DNA from: a virus
DNA: 64,000 bases
IMG/VR virus record: IMGVR_UViG_3300000228_000003
Coordinates: 27,991 to 91,990 of that record
Strand: one strand, 5' to 3'
Positions 2,391-57,552 of this stretch are shown here, piece by piece. Position 1 is the first letter of the stretch, and every line of letters begins with the position of its first letter. A program made the translations under genes and the position numbers. Under the pieces are notes generated by a model. The model saw only the letters and a list, made by a program, of their open reading frames with translations, made no database searches and was not told the DNA's origin.

Positions 2391-2441
2391 TCCAATTTAT
2401 TTTAATTTTATATTATTAATATAGAACAGCTATACGATGTT
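2391..2441 (+). promoter_or_regulatory. Cassette promoter plus leader stem-loop, copy 1
   Basis: Contains CCAATTTATTTTAATTT, the box TATATTATTAATA (2409-2421), then GAACAGC-TATAC-GATGTT (stem arms 2425-2430 and 2436-2441, one mismatch). The same order of elements recurs before genes at 29068, 48648 (minus), 52376, 55428, 55947 and 56906. The gene follows with the shared AAAAGGATTT ribosome binding region. Promoter activity is inferred from conservation. Confidence 0.65.
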
Positions 2442-2465
2442 ACTAAAACAAAAAGGATTTATAAT

Positions 2466-2798
2466 ATGTCAATATTAGAAGAAACAGTTATCGCAGAAAT
2501 GCGAAAAGACAGTATGTTAATTCAAGAGACATCGGACGAGACTATACTGATAGCTCTTAAAGGGCTAAAGAGAGTATATGGTTTGTTCTGTAACATGCAG
2601 TTTGATAGGGGTAGCTTTGACCCTATCTTCTTCGACAGTATCGAGGCGTTATCTGCCGCCACAGTAACAGTGGTAGTAAGTTTATATGGTATGAACGCTT
2701 CTGTCGGTATTACAGAGTTCCTTAATGAGAACTCTGTAAATGACCAGCCTCGCGGTGTTTTCTTAGCGAGGATACTGGATAAACTACCAGTTGCTTAG
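2466..2798 (+). CDS. Cassette-driven small protein, 110 aa
   Basis: ATG preceded by AAAAGGATTTATAAT, the leader end shared by all cassette genes. Base composition is richer in G and C than the flanking genes. The protein is acidic at the N-terminus and then mainly helical, with MNASVGITEFLNEN near the middle; no known family. It sits alone between a terminator at 2346 and a bidirectional terminator at 2802. Sharing of the promoter-leader with the papain-like protease and beta-helix genes suggests a common expression time, perhaps an early host-directed protein; this is inference. Confidence 0.6.
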   Translation: MSILEETVIAEMRKDSMLIQETSDETILIALKGLKRVYGLFCNMQFDRGSFDPIFFDSIEALSAATVTVVVSLYGMNASVGITEFLNENSVNDQPRGVFLARILDKLPVA

Positions 2799-28625: not shown

Positions 28626-29003
28626 ATGGGAAATGAAAAAATAATAATACAAACTATAATGTTTATTTTAACTTTTACTATAATAGCAATAACGATATTA
28701 ACTGGTTTTGCTATGTACAGGGATACGGTAGATATTAAAGTAGTATATGACCATTTTAGAGATATAATAATGGCTATTATTACATTACTAACCGGAGTGA
28801 TTACAGGTAAATTCGCATTGACTACACCTGGTAGTAAAATAAACGACGTAGGTCCATTACCGCCACCAGATTTAGTATTACCACCTGAAACATTTAATGG
28901 TGAAGTAAACAACCAGTCTACTAACACGGAAGATAGTGTAATTAACATACAACATGCAACTATAAATGTGTATGACGCAGTAGATATATCTAAAAAAAGC
29001 TAA
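28626..29003 (+). CDS. Small membrane protein with two TM segments, 125 aa (holin candidate)
   Basis: ATG with AAAGGATAGC upstream. Two hydrophobic segments: about residues 7-30 (IIIQTIMFILTFTIIAITIL) and 46-65 (DIIMAIITLLTGVITGKFA), separated by a short charged loop. A Pro-rich (PLPPPDLVLPP) Asn/Thr-rich soluble tail of ~55 residues follows. Size and topology would fit a holin or a membrane-bound particle accessory, but no lysis gene is beside it. It ends just before a cassette promoter. Confidence 0.5.
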   Translation: MGNEKIIIQTIMFILTFTIIAITILTGFAMYRDTVDIKVVYDHFRDIIMAIITLLTGVITGKFALTTPGSKINDVGPLPPPDLVLPPETFNGEVNNQSTNTEDSVINIQHATINVYDAVDISKKS

Positions 29004-29006
29004 GCC

Positions 29007-29039
29007 TATATTACTATAATAGAACATCTTTATGATGTT
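29007..29039 (+). promoter_or_regulatory. Cassette promoter plus leader stem-loop, copy 2
   Basis: TATATTAC (29007-29014), ATAATAGAAC, then a perfect 6-bp stem AACATC/GATGTT (29023-29028 with 29034-29039) and TACTAAA. TATATTAC is, to my recollection, the core of phiKZ-type early promoters. Confidence 0.65.
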
Positions 29040-29067
29040 ACTAAACTTTAATATATAAGGGTATATT

Positions 29068-29757
29068 ATGCGCACATTTACGCTAACACCTGTCGCGGTA
29101 CTTACATTAGACTTGTACAACTACTTAGTAGATAGCGATAATGAAAGTTTTATTATGCAGTCATATTGTGTACTTTTTAAGACAGCTGGTGTGGAACATA
29201 AATTCTATTATACAAATTTAGAACTGTATCAACTACGCGGCTTATTTAGCCTTTACGATGTGAAGGATTACACCTCGAACATAGATACACTAATCAATAT
29301 CTATCATACTGAGGAAAAAAGAATACCAGAGTTCTTCTACACTGTTGATAAAGATATTAATTTATGGAAATACGCATTTGACTTACTAGTATACAGCGCA
29401 TTTAGAAGGTATGTGTATAAAAAACTAGAATCCAGTATAAAAAATAATACTATAGAGGATTTTAAAAAGACTCTAATCAGTAATTCTTTCATATTGCCAT
29501 ACAGTGACATATTACAGTATGACCAATATATGTGTTCTTTTGATAACACACTTAAGACATCCTTAACTTATAGCGATTGTTCCACAATAGCATATTGGTT
29601 ACTAGAAAGTAAAGAAGTAAGAATTAAGTATATGAAAAAACCAAAAGTATTACCGCATGGAACATCAGTAGATGGTAACAATATAGTTAATGTTAATGGT
29701 GATGGTATATTTACTAATCACTACTTAATAAAAAATAACTATATAATATACACATAA
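29068..29757 (+). CDS. Cassette-driven protein of unknown function, 229 aa
   Basis: ATG with AAGGGTATATT upstream, downstream of cassette copy 2; the leader between stem-loop and RBS differs from the AAGGATTTAAAATG type. The protein is aromatic-rich, partly helical, with a central Lys-rich helix (YVYKKLESSIKNNTIEDFKK) and a short C-terminal beta region (VNVNGDGIF). No family recognised. It forms a single-gene unit between cassette promoter and terminator, like the other cassette genes, but shares the AT-rich composition of the core genome. Confidence 0.5.
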   Translation: MRTFTLTPVAVLTLDLYNYLVDSDNESFIMQSYCVLFKTAGVEHKFYYTNLELYQLRGLFSLYDVKDYTSNIDTLINIYHTEEKRIPEFFYTVDKDINLWKYAFDLLVYSAFRRYVYKKLESSIKNNTIEDFKKTLISNSFILPYSDILQYDQYMCSFDNTLKTSLTYSDCSTIAYWLLESKEVRIKYMKKPKVLPHGTSVDGNNIVNVNGDGIFTNHYLIKNNYIIYT

Positions 29758-47939: not shown

Positions 47940-47975
47940 ATTAGCAGATAGGGGATGACTCCCCTATCTGCTAAT
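47940..47975 (-). terminator. Terminator of the papain-like protease gene
   Basis: Sixteen-bp stem (47940-47955 with 47960-47975), loop TGAC, overlapping the protease stop codon; on the minus strand it is followed by a run of eight T. It separates the protease gene from RecJ. Confidence 0.8.
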
Positions 47976-48648
47976 TTCCTAATATGTATATTATATTAGG
48001 GGCGAGTGCTCCTAGCAGCATTTGGCTACTGATTGCCCAGTAGCCCTTATCACCAGAGTCTTCTCCTGACGAATCACGTAGCATTATAGTCTCTCCGTCT
48101 GTGGAGATTCCACAGACTATCATCGCGTGTAACGAAAACATCTTATCTGAGAATAACTTGGCAGCCAAGGTATGACCTCTCTCTAAGTTCTGCTTAGAGA
48201 AGCATATGTTACTATCTTTATACGCGGCTAAATGCATTATACTTTGTACACACACCAACAAGGGTTTACCAGCCGTAATTGCTGGTATAACTTGTTGCAC
48301 ACTAAGTTTATTGTACCCGCGTGAGCCTACCGCGTTTTCTAGCATTTGCACTATATCTATGTTTGTTAAACCATCGACGCCTTCTTTTTTAATAGACCTA
48401 TACCAATCATCTGGATTGGTAGGACACTGTACCCCGTGAAATCCCATTAGTCCTGCCATAGCGTGGCAGACACAGCTAGCTGTCTCCTGTTTTGTCACAG
48501 GGGGCATTGTAGTTCTTAGGTCTACTCCCCAAGTTATTTTTTTACCGAAACCTATTCGGTAAGGTAACATCATTGTTACAACAAGAATGACGATAGGTCC
48601 TATGGTCACTATAATAAAAATACCTAATATTAAAATTAAATTTAACAT
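47971..48648 (-). CDS. Membrane-anchored papain-like (C1A) cysteine peptidase, 225 aa
   Basis: ATG with CCTAAGGATTTAAA upstream, the cassette leader. A single hydrophobic segment (about 2-28) anchors the N-terminus. The peptidase C1 pattern follows: VTKQETASCVCHAMAG (Q54, C59) where papain has the oxyanion Gln and SCW; FSLHAMIVCGIS (H174); RDSSGEDSGDKGYWAIS (D192-S193 in place of Asn-Ser-Trp, then GYW). At ~170 residues the catalytic part is shorter than cathepsins, with no propeptide. Clearly richer in GC than neighbouring genes. Papain-like proteases are rare in phages; possible roles are host-protein attack or particle maturation. Activity is not proven. Confidence 0.7.
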   Translation of the reverse strand: MLNLILILGIFIIVTIGPIVILVVTMMLPYRIGFGKKITWGVDLRTTMPPVTKQETASCVCHAMAGLMGFHGVQCPTNPDDWYRSIKKEGVDGLTNIDIVQMLENAVGSRGYNKLSVQQVIPAITAGKPLLVCVQSIMHLAAYKDSNICFSKQNLERGHTLAAKLFSDKMFSLHAMIVCGISTDGETIMLRDSSGEDSGDKGYWAISSQMLLGALAPNIIYILGN

Positions 48649-48670
48649 TTTAAATCCTTAGGAAAAAAGT

Positions 48671-48715
48671 AACACTATACGGTGTTCTATATCTGTTATA
48701 TAGGATTAGAAAGAT
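48671..48715 (-). promoter_or_regulatory. Cassette promoter plus leader stem-loop, copy 3 (minus strand)
   Basis: On the minus strand: TTCTAATCCTATATAACAG, ATATAGAACACC, stem arms AACAC/GTGTT, then TACTTTTTTCCTAAGGATTTAAAATG. It is nearly identical to the copy before the beta-helix gene at 52376. Confidence 0.7.
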
Positions 48716-48840
48716 TTAAAAAATGAGCATACTCCTTATTAACTATATTGATAACTAAAGTAATGTATTATTATTTCAGTTTATAACCAACTTATTTTTT
48801 TATCTTAATATAACTAGAATATCTGTATCCTATTTTTTAG

Positions 48841-50256: not shown

Positions 50257-50775
50257 ATGTCGATAGATAAAAAAGTAAATGAGTATATACTAAAAAAAGC
50301 ATTAATAGAACTAACTATTGATAGACTAAGCACTTACATAGCAGATAATGCTAAAGACACAGCAAAAGGTTTACTAGATATTATTAACGAGTTAGGACAA
50401 GAGGCTAAAACATACCCAGATGCGCCGAAAGCATTAGACGCCTTGTTTAATAGGCTAACTAGCAGTTTTGAAAATACCTTAGAAGAAGATTTTCCAAAAG
50501 ATTTATTACCACAAATTTATAAGTCCAACCATGACACCTTTAAACAACTATTAAAAGATAAGATGTCTAATTTTAGTTACACTGTAACATTAGCCACAAA
50601 AGATGGTGTTATAGAGCACGTATACGAAGTTATTGCGGCAGGCATACCTGACGACAGAAAAGAAGCGATAAGAAACGTCATCATAGCTACTGTAAACGCA
50701 TTAACCGGACAACCTAAAGATATGGATATAGATAAGATAACTTTGTTAGTACAAGCTAAACTAAGATTTATCTAA
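50257..50775 (+). CDS. Hypothetical helical protein, 172 aa
   Basis: ATG 3 bases after the previous stop, with GAAGGATGATTT overlapping it. Helical, Lys/Asp-rich, about the size of a small assembly chaperone; segment EDFPKDLLPQIYKSNH in the middle. No family recognised. The stop codon lies inside the first unit of a 35-bp tandem duplication that includes the terminator. Confidence 0.5.
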   Translation: MSIDKKVNEYILKKALIELTIDRLSTYIADNAKDTAKGLLDIINELGQEAKTYPDAPKALDALFNRLTSSFENTLEEDFPKDLLPQIYKSNHDTFKQLLKDKMSNFSYTVTLATKDGVIEHVYEVIAAGIPDDRKEAIRNVIIATVNALTGQPKDMDIDKITLLVQAKLRFI

Positions 50776-50850
50776 CCGTCATTGCACTATAGATAGCATG
50801 TGCTATCTAACCGTCATTGCACTATAGATAGCACATGCTATCTATAGTGC
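50770..50850 (+). terminator. Terminator within a 35-bp tandem duplication
   Basis: Units begin at 50770 and 50805, each with ATCTAACCGTCATTGCACT; they differ only near their ends. Unit 2 plus the next 11 bases forms a 15-bp stem (50819-50833 with 50836-50850). Unit 1 can fold into a shorter stem. A T7 run lies at 50871-50877. Confidence 0.7.
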
Positions 50851-52293: not shown

Positions 52294-52304
52294 CTAGTAG
52301 CTTT

Positions 52305-52352
52305 CCAATTTATTCTAATCCTATATAATATATATGGAACACCTACAGTGTT
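52305..52352 (+). promoter_or_regulatory. Cassette promoter plus leader stem-loop, copy 4
   Basis: CCAATTTATTCTAATCC, TATATAATATATAT, then GAACACC-TACA-GTGTTAC with a perfect 5-bp stem (52338-52342 with 52348-52352). Leader ends CCTAAGGATTTAAAATGG. Confidence 0.7.
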
Positions 52353-52375
52353 ACTATTTCTCCTAAGGATTTAAA

Positions 52376-53101
52376 ATGGAATACAAAGAAGAAGTAAAAG
52401 AAGTAAAAAGTATCTTTACTTTAACGGATGAAGAAAATGCATTCTTTGTTTCCTCGGATGACGAGGCTGAAAAAGTGGAAAGATTTACAATGGGCGACGT
52501 GCTGGAGTTCCAGTATAATACTGCTGGAAAGATAATTTGTCCAGCCGGAAATTACACTGACATTTCCGATTTTCCAAGTGACTGCTACTTCGAAGATACG
52601 CAATTGTTTGGAGATAATGTGTGCTTCGGAAAAAATTGCGTGTTTAAACCAGGATCCAAATTCGGAGCTAGCTGCACCTTCGCAAGAGGATGCAAGTTCG
52701 GACCGAGCTCGCAATTCGGTGAGTGTTGTGAGTTTGGAAGCTGGTGCGAATTCGGGTTTGACTGCACCTTCGCAAGGAGGTGCGACTTCGGAAGAAGGGG
52801 CGTATTCGGGCACGATTGTGCCTTTGCAAGTGGGTGCACATATGGTGAGGACACCACCATAATCAGAGGCGCCTTTGATGAGCTGGGGATGGGGGCGGAC
52901 GACGCGCCTATCCTTCAGTGCGTAGTCGGCAAAGAGACATTGCGTGCGTATCGCCTTCGTGGCGATATTATGGTGATTGTACCATTCTTCGAAGGTACTC
53001 TCCATGAATACGGGCAGCAAATGGGTACCATACATGGACACCCAGCTGACGTCCAGAAGGCCTTCATGGGTCTTATAAAAGCGGCGTGGGGGGTAGTATA
53101 A
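52376..53101 (+). CDS. Cys-rich hexapeptide-repeat beta-helix protein, 241 aa
   Basis: Start follows the shared AAGGATTTAAAATGG leader. An acidic N-terminal module (MEYKEEVKEV, then LTDEENAFFVSSDD) is shared in part with other cassette genes. Residues 70-159 form about fifteen six-residue repeats of the type x-x-F-G-x-x, many starting with Cys (CTFARG, CKFGPS, CEFGSW), which predicts a left-handed parallel beta-helix with a Cys ladder. A ~75-residue C-terminal domain follows. Codon use is much more GC-rich than neighbours. Function unknown; host-directed binding or mimicry is possible. Antisense long frames over it are repeat artefacts. Confidence 0.7.
   Translation: MEYKEEVKEVKSIFTLTDEENAFFVSSDDEAEKVERFTMGDVLEFQYNTAGKIICPAGNYTDISDFPSDCYFEDTQLFGDNVCFGKNCVFKPGSKFGASCTFARGCKFGPSSQFGECCEFGSWCEFGFDCTFARRCDFGRRGVFGHDCAFASGCTYGEDTTIIRGAFDELGMGADDAPILQCVVGKETLRAYRLRGDIMVIVPFFEGTLHEYGQQMGTIHGHPADVQKAFMGLIKAAWGVV
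52583..52852 (+). repeat. 18-bp-period coding repeat (FG hexads)
   Basis: Codons for x-x-F-G-x-x recur about fifteen times, with DNA blocks such as TGCACCTTCGCAAG and AAGTTCGGA repeated nearly unchanged, suggesting recent internal duplication. Confidence 0.7.
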
Positions 53102-55290: not shown

Positions 55291-55356
55291 CTGTGTCCTT
55301 TTTATTTATACAAAGTTCATTAAATTTTATAAAATTATAATACTAGATAGTAGCTT

Positions 55357-55405
55357 CCAATTTATTTTAATCTTATATTATTAATATAGAACATCTTATG
55401 GTGTT
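55357..55405 (+). promoter_or_regulatory. Cassette promoter plus leader stem-loop, copy 5
   Basis: CCAATTTATTTTAATC, TATATTATTAATA (55374-55386), TAG, then stem AACATC/GGTGTT (55390-55395 with 55400-55405), which pairs fully only as RNA because it needs one U-G pair. Confidence 0.7.
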
Positions 55406-55427
55406 ACTAAAAACAAAAGGATTTAAA

Positions 55428-55820
55428 ATGGCAACAATAAAAATTAAAAAGGAAACAGATATCAACACTGAAACGGACGAGGAGATTGCTGCCGGATTGG
55501 TGGCAGTCGCGGCTGCTTCGGCAGCAATGAATATGATAGCATGCGGTGCGAACCGTGTAATTATATATGATCCAAAGGGTTGTTGGGGAGCCTGGGTGAT
55601 TCTAGACAGCAAGTGTCATCCATTGGATAGAAATAATAGGCCTATTCTATCTATTACGGACGAACTACTAAGAATAGCCTTGGGAATGTGCGGAGACAGC
55701 TTTGATTTTATCCGCCTGTCAAAGGACGATAAGGTAACACCTATCGTCAATTATCGCGGAGGAAGAGAGTACGGCAATTCCATTTACTTTGCCAAGACAG
55801 AGCACCTGCGGTGGCACTAG
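55428..55820 (+). CDS. Cassette family protein 1, 130 aa
   Basis: Start at the ATG of the AAAGGATTTAAAATGG leader; the frame extends to 55398 but without an RBS. Acidic Lys/Glu N-terminus (ETDINTETDEE), Ala-rich hydrophobic helix (about 23-40), then the family core RVIIYDPKGCWGAW, LDSKCHPLD, RIALGMCGDSFDF and DKVTP. Two close paralogues lie at 55947 and 56906. Conserved Cys and Trp suggest a small metal- or disulfide-stabilised fold. The stop codon sits in the loop of a terminal hairpin (55810-55825). GC-richer than core genes. Function unknown. Confidence 0.6.
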   Translation: MATIKIKKETDINTETDEEIAAGLVAVAAASAAMNMIACGANRVIIYDPKGCWGAWVILDSKCHPLDRNNRPILSITDELLRIALGMCGDSFDFIRLSKDDKVTPIVNYRGGREYGNSIYFAKTEHLRWH

Positions 55821-55825
55821 CCACC
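55810..55825 (+). terminator. Hairpin over the stop codon of cassette gene 1
   Basis: GGTGGC/GCCACC stem with ACTA loop. No clear T-tract follows, so it may only weaken transcription before the next cassette promoter. Confidence 0.45.
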
Positions 55826-55880
55826 ACGAGCTAGTTCACGTCTATCAGCACGTAATTATATAGTATTACGTTGATTAACA

Positions 55881-55919
55881 TAATATTACTATAATAAAAA
55901 TAGAACATCTTATAGTGAT
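55881..55919 (+). promoter_or_regulatory. Cassette promoter plus degenerate leader stem-loop, copy 6
   Basis: TAATATTACTATAATA, then AATAGAACATC-TTAT-AGTGAT; the right arm has two changes relative to GGTGTT, weakening the stem. Leader continues to AAAAGGATTTAAAATGG. Confidence 0.6.
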
Positions 55920-55946
55920 ACTAAAACAAAAAAAAAAGGATTTAAA

Positions 55947-56348
55947 ATGGAATACAAAGAAGAAGTAAAAGATATTCTTACACTATCAGAGGATGGTATA
56001 GAGAACACGGATGAGGAAGCTGCCATGATAGCTGCGGTAGCTGCTACAGCGGCAATGAATATGTTATCACGCGGGGTGTACCGTGTAATTATATATGACC
56101 CAAAGGGTTGTTGGGGATGCTGGGCAACTTTAGACAGTGCTTGCCATTCACTAGACTGGTCTGGGTATCGAGTATCGTCCATCCTAGCTCTTCTAATAAA
56201 AATAGCCTTGGGAATGTGCGGAGATAGCTTTGACCTCCTCCCATTATCGATTGAGGATAAGGTAACCCCCGTATCAAAAAGCGGGGAAGGAAGGGACTAT
56301 GGCGACTCCCTTAGCTTTGCCAAGATGGAGGATCTGCGGTGGTATTAA
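55947..56348 (+). CDS. Cassette family protein 2, 133 aa
   Basis: N-terminal MEYKEEVKD is nearly that of the beta-helix protein at 52376 (MEYKEEVKEV), but the rest follows the cassette-family core: AAMNMLSRG, RVIIYDPKGCWGCWATLDSACHSLDW, ALLIKIALGMCGDSFDLLPLS, ending FAKMEDLRWY. It is thus a chimera of an N-terminal module and a family body. The end of the gene (GCGGTGG around the stop, then CTCCTC and T8) matches the beta-helix gene terminator. Function unknown. Confidence 0.6.
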   Translation: MEYKEEVKDILTLSEDGIENTDEEAAMIAAVAATAAMNMLSRGVYRVIIYDPKGCWGCWATLDSACHSLDWSGYRVSSILALLIKIALGMCGDSFDLLPLSIEDKVTPVSKSGEGRDYGDSLSFAKMEDLRWY

Positions 56349-56378
56349 CCATCACCGCCTCCTCTCTCCTTTTTTTAT
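56330..56378 (+). terminator. Terminator of cassette gene 2
   Basis: Stem GCGGTG/CACCGC around the stop codon, then CTCCTCTCTCCTTTTTTT; related to the terminator at 53103-53134. Confidence 0.65.
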
Positions 56379-56408
56379 TATATTTATGAATTTAAATAAG
56401 GAAAGACA

Positions 56409-56837
56409 ATGTCTACACTAACAGTAAATAACACATATAGCTTTAGTACTAAAATACCAGCAGTATTAGGTTCTACGTATAATAATGCTAAACTAGTAGC
56501 TATATTAACACCAGAGCTAGCGGTCACATTGGGTTCTGGCGGTATAGATATACCAACTAACCACATAACTATTGCCAATGAGTTAAGAAAACAAAACGAT
56601 TTAGTCTCTATAAATTATAGAGATTTACAAACTTGGTATTTATTCGATATACAAGGACAACGTAAAATATTTGCTGCGGAGTATTTAATACTGGGTACTG
56701 TAACACAAGTGTCTAATACTAATTTAGATATTAGCATAACAAGTATCAACCCATCGCTTGTTAATATGGTATTAGAAACATTAAAAAAATTATTACCAAC
56801 TAGTGCTATTACACATACTGTAATAACTAGTTCTTAA
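56409..56837 (+). CDS. Hypothetical beta-rich protein, 142 aa
   Basis: ATG with AAGGAAAGACA upstream. AT-rich like core genes, in contrast to the cassette genes on both sides. The protein has ILTPELAVTLGSGGIDIP and a strand pattern YLFDIQGQRKIFAAEYLI typical of a small beta-barrel; it may be a structural or regulatory factor. No family recognised. It interrupts the array of cassette genes, so the array is not purely tandem. Confidence 0.5.
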   Translation: MSTLTVNNTYSFSTKIPAVLGSTYNNAKLVAILTPELAVTLGSGGIDIPTNHITIANELRKQNDLVSINYRDLQTWYLFDIQGQRKIFAAEYLILGTVTQVSNTNLDISITSINPSLVNMVLETLKKLLPTSAITHTVITSS

Positions 56838-56883
56838 TTTATTCTAATTTTATATTATTAATATAGAACATCTATACGGTGTT
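56833..56883 (+). promoter_or_regulatory. Cassette promoter plus leader stem-loop, copy 7
   Basis: TTAATTTATTCTAATTT, TATATTATTAATATAG (56851-56866), stem AACATC/GGTGTT (56867-56872 with 56878-56883), then TACTAAAATAAAAAGGATTTAAAATGG. Confidence 0.7.
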
Positions 56884-56905
56884 ACTAAAATAAAAAGGAT
56901 TTAAA

Positions 56906-57265
56906 ATGGCAACAATAGAAGCTAAAAAGGAAACGGACGAGGAGAACGCGTTCTCTGCTTCGTCGTACGGGGAAGTTGTTACAAAGAATACGGATGAGAA
57001 AGCGTCTATGATAGCCGCGGTAGCTGCTACCGCGGCAATGAATATGTTATCACGCGGTGCAAACCGTGTAATTATATATGACCCAAAGGGTTGTTGTGAA
57101 TGCTGGGCAACTTTAGATAGTACTTGCCATTCACTAGATTGGAATGGGAGACGTGTATCGTCCATCCTAGCTCTTCTAATAAAAATAGCATTGGAAATGT
57201 GCGGAGATAGCTTTGACCTCCTCCCATTATCGATTAATGAAAAGATAACACCTGACGTCAATTAG
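56906..57265 (+). CDS. Cassette family protein 3, truncated, 119 aa
   Basis: N-terminus MATIEAKKETDEENAFSASS joins the MATI start of family member 1 to the DEENAF segment seen in the beta-helix protein. The body (AAMNMLSRG, RVIIYDPKGCCECW, MCGDSFDLLPLS) is close to member 2. It ends early: a TAG stop stands where member 1 has Tyr (VNY). The C-terminal family residues continue in frame after the stop as unread sequence. Whether the shortened protein works is unknown. Confidence 0.55.
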   Translation: MATIEAKKETDEENAFSASSYGEVVTKNTDEKASMIAAVAATAAMNMLSRGANRVIIYDPKGCCECWATLDSTCHSLDWNGRRVSSILALLIKIALEMCGDSFDLLPLSINEKITPDVN

Positions 57266-57313
57266 CACAGAAGGAAGGACTATGGTGATACCCTTAGCTT
57301 TGTCAAGATAGAA
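57266..57313 (+). pseudogene. Unread 3' remnant of cassette family gene 3
   Basis: In frame after the TAG, the bases still encode KDYGDTLSFVKIEH, matching REYGNSIYFAKTEH and RDYGDSLSFAKMED of members 1 and 2. The remnant runs straight into the next leader stem-loop at AAGATAGAACACC, where the promoter box should be. Confidence 0.65.
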
Positions 57314-57327
57314 CACCATATAGTGTT
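57311..57327 (+). promoter_or_regulatory. Leader stem-loop copy 8 without promoter box
   Basis: Perfect AACAC/GTGTT stem (57312-57316 with 57323-57327) followed by TACTAAAATTTAAAAGGATTTTAAAATGG; the AT-rich box seen upstream in the other copies is missing. Confidence 0.6.
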
Positions 57328-57351
57328 ACTAAAATTTAAAAGGATTTTAAA

Positions 57352-57552
57352 ATGGTCTGCATAGAGAGTGCTTTTATCATAACAGATGAGGATACTGCGT
57401 TTTTTACATCCTCCGATTACGCGGACACAGTTACGGAAGCTACGTCGTCTGCAGAGACTCTGTCGGTTATCGCAATGGTATTAGACATGACGACATATGA
57501 TGCTCGTTTACGACCCGTATGGGGAATAGATAGCCTAGATAACGTTATATAG
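57352..57552 (+). CDS. Cassette-type small protein, 66 aa
   Basis: ATG with AAAAGGATTTTAAA upstream. Residues 8-22 (FIITDEDTAFFTSSD) match FTLTDEENAFFVSSD of the beta-helix protein, but the remaining ~40 residues resemble nothing else here. It thus carries the shared N-terminal module on a different, short body, or is a deletion remnant. GC-richer than the following core genes. It has no own promoter box, so it may depend on read-through from copy 7. Confidence 0.5.
   Translation: MVCIESAFIITDEDTAFFTSSDYADTVTEATSSAETLSVIAMVLDMTTYDARLRPVWGIDSLDNVI

Follow-up and report, generated by a model that had tools for sequence, protein, structure and literature searches.

The 64,000-nucleotide stretch of viral DNA analysed here, in the following the window, is part of a partial IMG/VR record of 118,709 bases and encodes a membrane-anchored papain-like protein of 225 residues which, as judged from its sequence, is a diverged homologue of peptidase family C1 located outside the Pfam definition of the family. 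The host of this protease gene is a deep-branching, probably nucleus-forming jumbo phage of the phiKZ-like group, and we see about an even chance that the gene product is an early, acquired, membrane-tethered cysteine peptidase which acts with a cytosolic domain on host proteins.

Homology, fold, active site and membrane anchor

The initial annotation, made from the sequence alone, had described the open reading frame with Q54, C59, C61, H174, D192-S193 and a GYW motif (202-204), all of which are found as claimed (Table 1), and had proposed a profile search against family C1. Fifty related jumbo-phage contigs were gathered via the RNA polymerase beta subunit; four of these encode ordinary C1 peptidases, and starting from these about 80 phage C1 proteins were gathered, the 68 distinct ones among which constitute the phage C1 profile. 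This profile matches the protease with 23.0 bits (E 2.4e-9) versus a peak of 7.9 bits among 2000 shuffles of the domain, so that the papain order of the residues exceeds chance. Among the 226 ORFs of the record, the protease is on top by more than 22 bits (runner-up, 0.4 bits), with two matched blocks, residues 40-72 at the Gln-Cys end and residues 173-211 at the His-Asp end. The signature of the catalytic domain begins at VDLRTTMPPVTKQ (residues 42-54), earlier than first noted, and the best single-protein match is the protein L131 (phmmer, E 1.9e-7). The protease scores below the Pfam gathering thresholds for C1: PF03051 (Peptidase_C1_2) gave E 0.0073 and 15.6 bits with a cut-off of 22, and a PF00112 search of the phage's own genome gave no match. 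Equally, PF13529 (C39-like) remained below its cut-off with E 0.049, and neither NCBIfam nor phmmer against PDB sequences gave a match to the protease.

Soluble relatives are encoded on at least 90 IMG/VR stretches, and a scan with the homologue alignment A3 recovered soluble, standard C1 relatives only; direct relatives of the protease were found neither in IMG/VR, GTDB genomes, INPHARED phages and PLSDB plasmids nor in the 50 related jumbo contigs. A DNA pattern for RDS..G...GD.GY had one match, which overlaps an unrelated ORF at its end and was taken as a chance hit. As xylellain (3ois) is the top match of the A3 profile (E 1.3e-83), with cathepsins next, the homologues were placed as xylellain-type C1A peptidases.

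Structure prediction, also proposed beforehand, gave a papain-like fold with xylellain first, in a model guided by a C1-only alignment. This AlphaFold2 model (pLDDT 74.6, pTM 0.71; residues 139-166 uncertain) covers the papain fold with residues 39-225 and has its best structural match in xylellain 3ois (Z 13.8, 167 residues, rmsd 3.2), tied with other papain-like enzymes within one Z unit, while Foldseek matches include cathepsins and phage or viral C1 proteins. In the model, the predicted nucleophile C59 sits at the start of the central helix, with Cys and then His in papain order. A single-sequence AlphaFold model is poor (pLDDT 42). Because the guiding alignment held C1 homologues only, the guided model is to be read as compatibility and not as an independent fold. 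The outcome that the initial annotation had named as speaking against its reading, lack of C1 similarity together with a fold that lacks the site, was not obtained, and the homology and fold of the protease are well supported.

All 41 aligned homologues share Q54, C59 and H174, with the catalytic residues invariant in A3. The Asp in place of the usual Asn had been called odd; the third residue is Asn in all 41 homologues and Asp192 in the protease. Furthermore, the residue after Asn-Ser is Trp in all 41 homologues and a second Trp follows four residues on in 40 of them, at which positions the protease carries Ser194 and Ser198; the loss of these two flanking Trp had been overlooked. The protease has Asp192-Ser-Ser at the place of the Asn-Ser-Trp third-residue feature of C1, and its Gln is one residue closer to the Cys (Gln-x4-Cys versus Gln-x5-Cys in 41 of 41). 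Because the Asn, the Trp and the Gln spacing were tested and found to deviate, the protease was not filed as a standard C1 member. C61 was ruled out as the nucleophile since in the alignment C59 stands at the invariant Cys position and C61 at an Ala/Gly position. The coordinated change of third residue and shield would fit either a rebuilt Cys-His-Asp site or weakened catalysis; with the shortened Gln-Cys loop, the N to D and the two W to S replacements could have altered or abolished activity.

The single N-terminal membrane segment is borne out by one long hydrophobic stretch in the hydropathy profile (best 19-residue mean 3.14, Kyte-Doolittle), which is a helix even in the single-sequence AlphaFold model, with a pLDDT of about 91-93 for residues 1-20. 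This helix takes the place of the homologues' N-terminal segment, and a membrane segment is absent from 68 of 68 phage C1 homologues. According to the positive-inside rule, the positively charged flank of a membrane helix stays cytosolic. As charges are absent before the helix and R31, K36 and K37 follow it, an N-out/C-in topology is predicted, in which the catalytic domain would face the cytosol.

Table 1. Positions of the protease gene, its residues and the leader copies in the window
Feature	Position	Strand	Basis or remark
Membrane-anchored papain-like protein, 225 aa, CDS with stop	47971..48648	-	homology and model
N-terminal membrane helix (predicted), residues 3-29	48562..48642	-	single-sequence model and hydropathy
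Q54, oxyanion-hole Gln equivalent	48487..48489	-	alignment
C59, nucleophile equivalent, start of central helix	48472..48474	-	alignment and model
H174, catalytic His equivalent	48127..48129	-	alignment
D192, where 41/41 aligned homologues carry Asn	48073..48075	-	alignment
Strong intrinsic-terminator-like hairpin, end of protease gene	47940..47975	-	16-bp stem, then T-rich tail
Protease leader	48646..48720	-	AT-rich promoter core, inverted repeat and ribosome-binding box
Promoter core of protease leader	48685-48706	-	AT-rich
Inverted repeat AACAC...GTGTT of protease leader	48669-48688	-	conserved
Ribosome-binding box with start, protease leader	48646-48659	-	
Leader copy, gene 2466	2392..2475	+	
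Leader copy, gene 29068	28990..29075	+	
Leader copy, gene 52376	52304..52385	+	
Leader copy, gene 55425	55356..55434	+	
Leader copy, gene 55947	55870..55956	+	promoter core diverged
Leader copy, gene 56906	56833..56915	+	
Leader copy, gene 57352	57278..57361	+	promoter core diverged

The phage, the gene neighbourhood and the cassette leader

The phage origin assumed in the initial annotation can be narrowed to a phiKZ-like jumbo phage on the basis of its multisubunit RNA polymerase, major head protein and a chimallin homologue. Among the products of the record are a phiKZ-type RNA polymerase beta subunit (phrog_3148, E 4e-291), which shares about 29% identity with its counterpart in 201phi2-1, a major head protein of phiKZ type and further proteins of the family; phrog_3231 was also matched, and tblastn matches were obtained in 294 phage records. 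Chimallin homologues are present in the relatives G001-G003, and via an alignment with relatives a homologue was found in the record outside the window (G000:8740-10434, L002:8740-10434; E 1.5e-34), a diverged member missed by a direct search with 201phi2-1 chimallin. The phiKZ-type genes and the chimallin homologue are the reason to consider the phage deep-branching and probably nucleus-forming.

As a terminator-like hairpin with a 16-bp stem (-28.3 kcal/mol, z -7.4) closes the gene, the protease looks like a single-gene unit. It is located upstream of the gene set recJ, phrog_3294 and 45037, which is retained in L185 and L187, two relatives that lack the protease; a counterpart is not detectable in the 50 related phages. 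The GC3 of the protease gene is 0.381 versus 0.207 +/- 0.023 in 19 core genes, and most other genes with the same leader are similarly high (0.34-0.49; two are lower, 0.29 and 0.30). This foreign-looking GC3 in the protease and most leader genes suggests acquired accessory genes. The terminator of its own, the foreign GC3 and the absence from relatives also agree with the earlier reading of an accessory rather than a head-maturation gene. In the related jumbo phage L185, a group I intron (Rfam RF00028, 89 bits) resides inside recJ (1070-1400) at the conserved DYDAD motif. In the window, a nearly perfect 35-base tandem duplication with a 26-base perfect inverted repeat is found between two genes at 50769-50850.

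The coupling of the protease to a cassette leader likewise holds, with ten copies of the leader before ten genes of the 118.7-kb record. In the leader unit of approximately 75 bases, an AT-rich core (CTATATTATTAATATAG) is combined with an inverted repeat GAACAYC...TGTTAC and with a AAGGATTTAAAATG box. This box fixes the start codon of the protease and is identical in other leader copies. A promoter PWM derived from the copies gives 23-28 bits for eight sites, followed by 16.6 for the next. The core without the repeat recurs with up to three mismatches in the related phages G001, G002, G003 and G030 (5, 5, 3 and 2 matches), on one strand only per record and with 15 matches in total versus 4 for a reversed-pattern control (1 each); small genes are situated downstream of two of the G001 sites. 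Pairing of the leader's inverted repeat is seen in 88% of cells, but there is no two-sided covariation, so that a conserved RNA hairpin is not supported. According to a review, an AT-rich motif precedes the early operons of every RNA polymerase-encoding jumbo phage and was confirmed as the early promoter in all cases with mapped transcripts (PMC7598289). By analogy, the leader is most likely the early virion-RNA-polymerase promoter of this lineage; the term 'early' rests on this analogy because the PWM scan found no leader-type site directly upstream of the chimallin gene, which is expected to be early.

The other leader genes have no family assigned. Three of them (55425, 55947 and 56906) are tandem paralogues at 55425-57265, each with its own leader, with a shared VIIYDPKGC motif and a GC3 of 0.40-0.46 versus 0.21 in core genes; they belong to no recognised family and are candidate takeover or counter-defence genes. 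The leader-driven protein encoded at 52376-53101 (GC3 0.49) has C-x-F-x-x-x repeats and weakly resembles hexapeptide-repeat beta-helices (PF00132, E 0.024).

Proposed function and rival explanations

In the explanation that we give about even chances, the protease gene would have been acquired as an accessory by a phiKZ-like, probably nucleus-forming jumbo phage and would be transcribed alone, from the repeated early-type promoter to its own terminator. The product, synthesized early and inserted into the inner membrane via its helix, would be a xylellain/papain-type cysteine peptidase with Cys59-His174-Asp192 and with Gln54 for the oxyanion hole. With a cytosolic catalytic domain, it would cleave host proteins located at the inner membrane or close to it early in infection, for takeover or counter-defence. 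We infer this timing, topology, activity and host target. In line with such a role, patchily distributed jumbo-phage peptidases have been proposed, in a review, to target host proteins (PMC7824862).

Two rivals stay and are serious. An active peptidase might process early, infection-vesicle or virion components of the phage itself instead of host proteins, which we consider unlikely. phiKZ-like phages need proteolysis of head proteins (PMC13282480) and a membrane location fits the early membrane vesicle or the assembly of capsids on the inner membrane (PMC12908238), but relatives manage without the protease gene, its composition is foreign and it shares its leader with unassigned accessory genes. 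That gp175 of phage fnug finds no match in the partial record would speak for such processing, but this search was done without a positive control and in an incomplete record. The protein might equally be catalytically weak or dead, a papain-like binding protein that holds its target at the membrane. The replacement of Asn by Asp and of two Trp by Ser and the shortened oxyanion loop, all at invariant or nearly invariant positions among 41 homologues, point in this direction; on the other hand, Gln, Cys and His are all kept and Asp is one of the canonical third residues in other papain-like families (PMC10318531), so that we judge this pseudo-protease improbable to the same degree as the processing of phage proteins.

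Much less is to be said for a signal-anchored periplasmic cell-wall enzyme resembling SAR endolysins or NlpC/P60 proteins, which we regard as very unlikely. Phages do have amidases and lysins of papain fold, which rank lower among the viral fold matches of the model, and the jumbo-phage papain-like domains described so far are NlpC/P60, sometimes tail-associated (PMC7824862); the nearest match in sequence and fold is, however, a xylellain-type C1 peptidase, the charges that follow the strongly hydrophobic helix speak for a cytosolic domain and the leader does not adjoin recognised lysis genes. Least of all would we expect a soluble phage C1 peptidase of the ordinary kind that carries a secretion signal and no anchor, as the soluble relatives on at least 90 IMG/VR stretches might suggest, since the hydrophobic stretch of about 27 residues lacks a basic n-region and, by eye, an evident cleavage motif.

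The preferred reading of a host-directed, membrane-tethered peptidase can be extended to a more specific and decidedly tentative proposal. In a nucleus-forming jumbo phage, an early, cytosol-facing, tethered papain-type peptidase might cut membrane-associated host or defence proteins or remodel the early vesicle, its site having been converted from a Trp-shielded Cys-His-Asn arrangement into a Cys-His-Asp one that lacks the shield. Phage peptidases used against hosts are hardly known, and with its small size, clear nucleophile and probably early expression the gene lends itself to a direct test of the target. Furthermore, the leader marks a set of genes of foreign composition, which are good candidates for host-takeover or counter-defence factors.

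Comparison with known systems

The protease resembles xylellain of Xylella fastidiosa (3ois) and the phage xylellain-type short C1A peptidases in the catalytic domain, the Cys-His order and the best structural match, and in the motifs VDLR...PPV..Q, HA..V.G and an S.G...GD.GY end. It differs from these peptidases in the membrane helix that replaces the N-terminal segment, in Asp for Asn and Ser for both Trp, in Gln-x4-Cys versus Gln-x5-Cys and in a Cys-His distance of 115 versus 121-152. The capture of xylellain-type C1A peptidases by Myo- and Siphoviridae has already been published (PMC10380794); in the library searched, no literature on a function of the phage enzymes was found.

With the jumbo-phage C1 peptidases L095-L098 the protease has in common a C1-type gene in phages with a phiKZ-like RNA polymerase, but those are soluble, have the standard Asn and Trp and score above the Pfam cut-off; to the aligned jumbo-phage C1 peptidases L105, L099 and L100 the protease is about 16-18% identical. 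The L097 and L098 genes adjoin an ORF that, judged by eye, resembles a transposase of the IS110 type, which hints at mobile accessory genes. Like the head-maturation protease of the gp175 type, the protein is a protease of a phiKZ-like phage; the gp175 type is, however, a serine protease of head maturation (PMC13282480), whereas the protein of the window is cysteine-type and accessory. Finally, like jumbo-phage early promoters (PMC7598289), the leader has a conserved AT-rich core in front of several scattered genes but differs in that the core is joined to a conserved inverted repeat and a ribosome-binding box in the 5' untranslated part. New features of the protease are its membrane anchor and altered active site, together with the early-type leader and the placement in a phiKZ-like phage.
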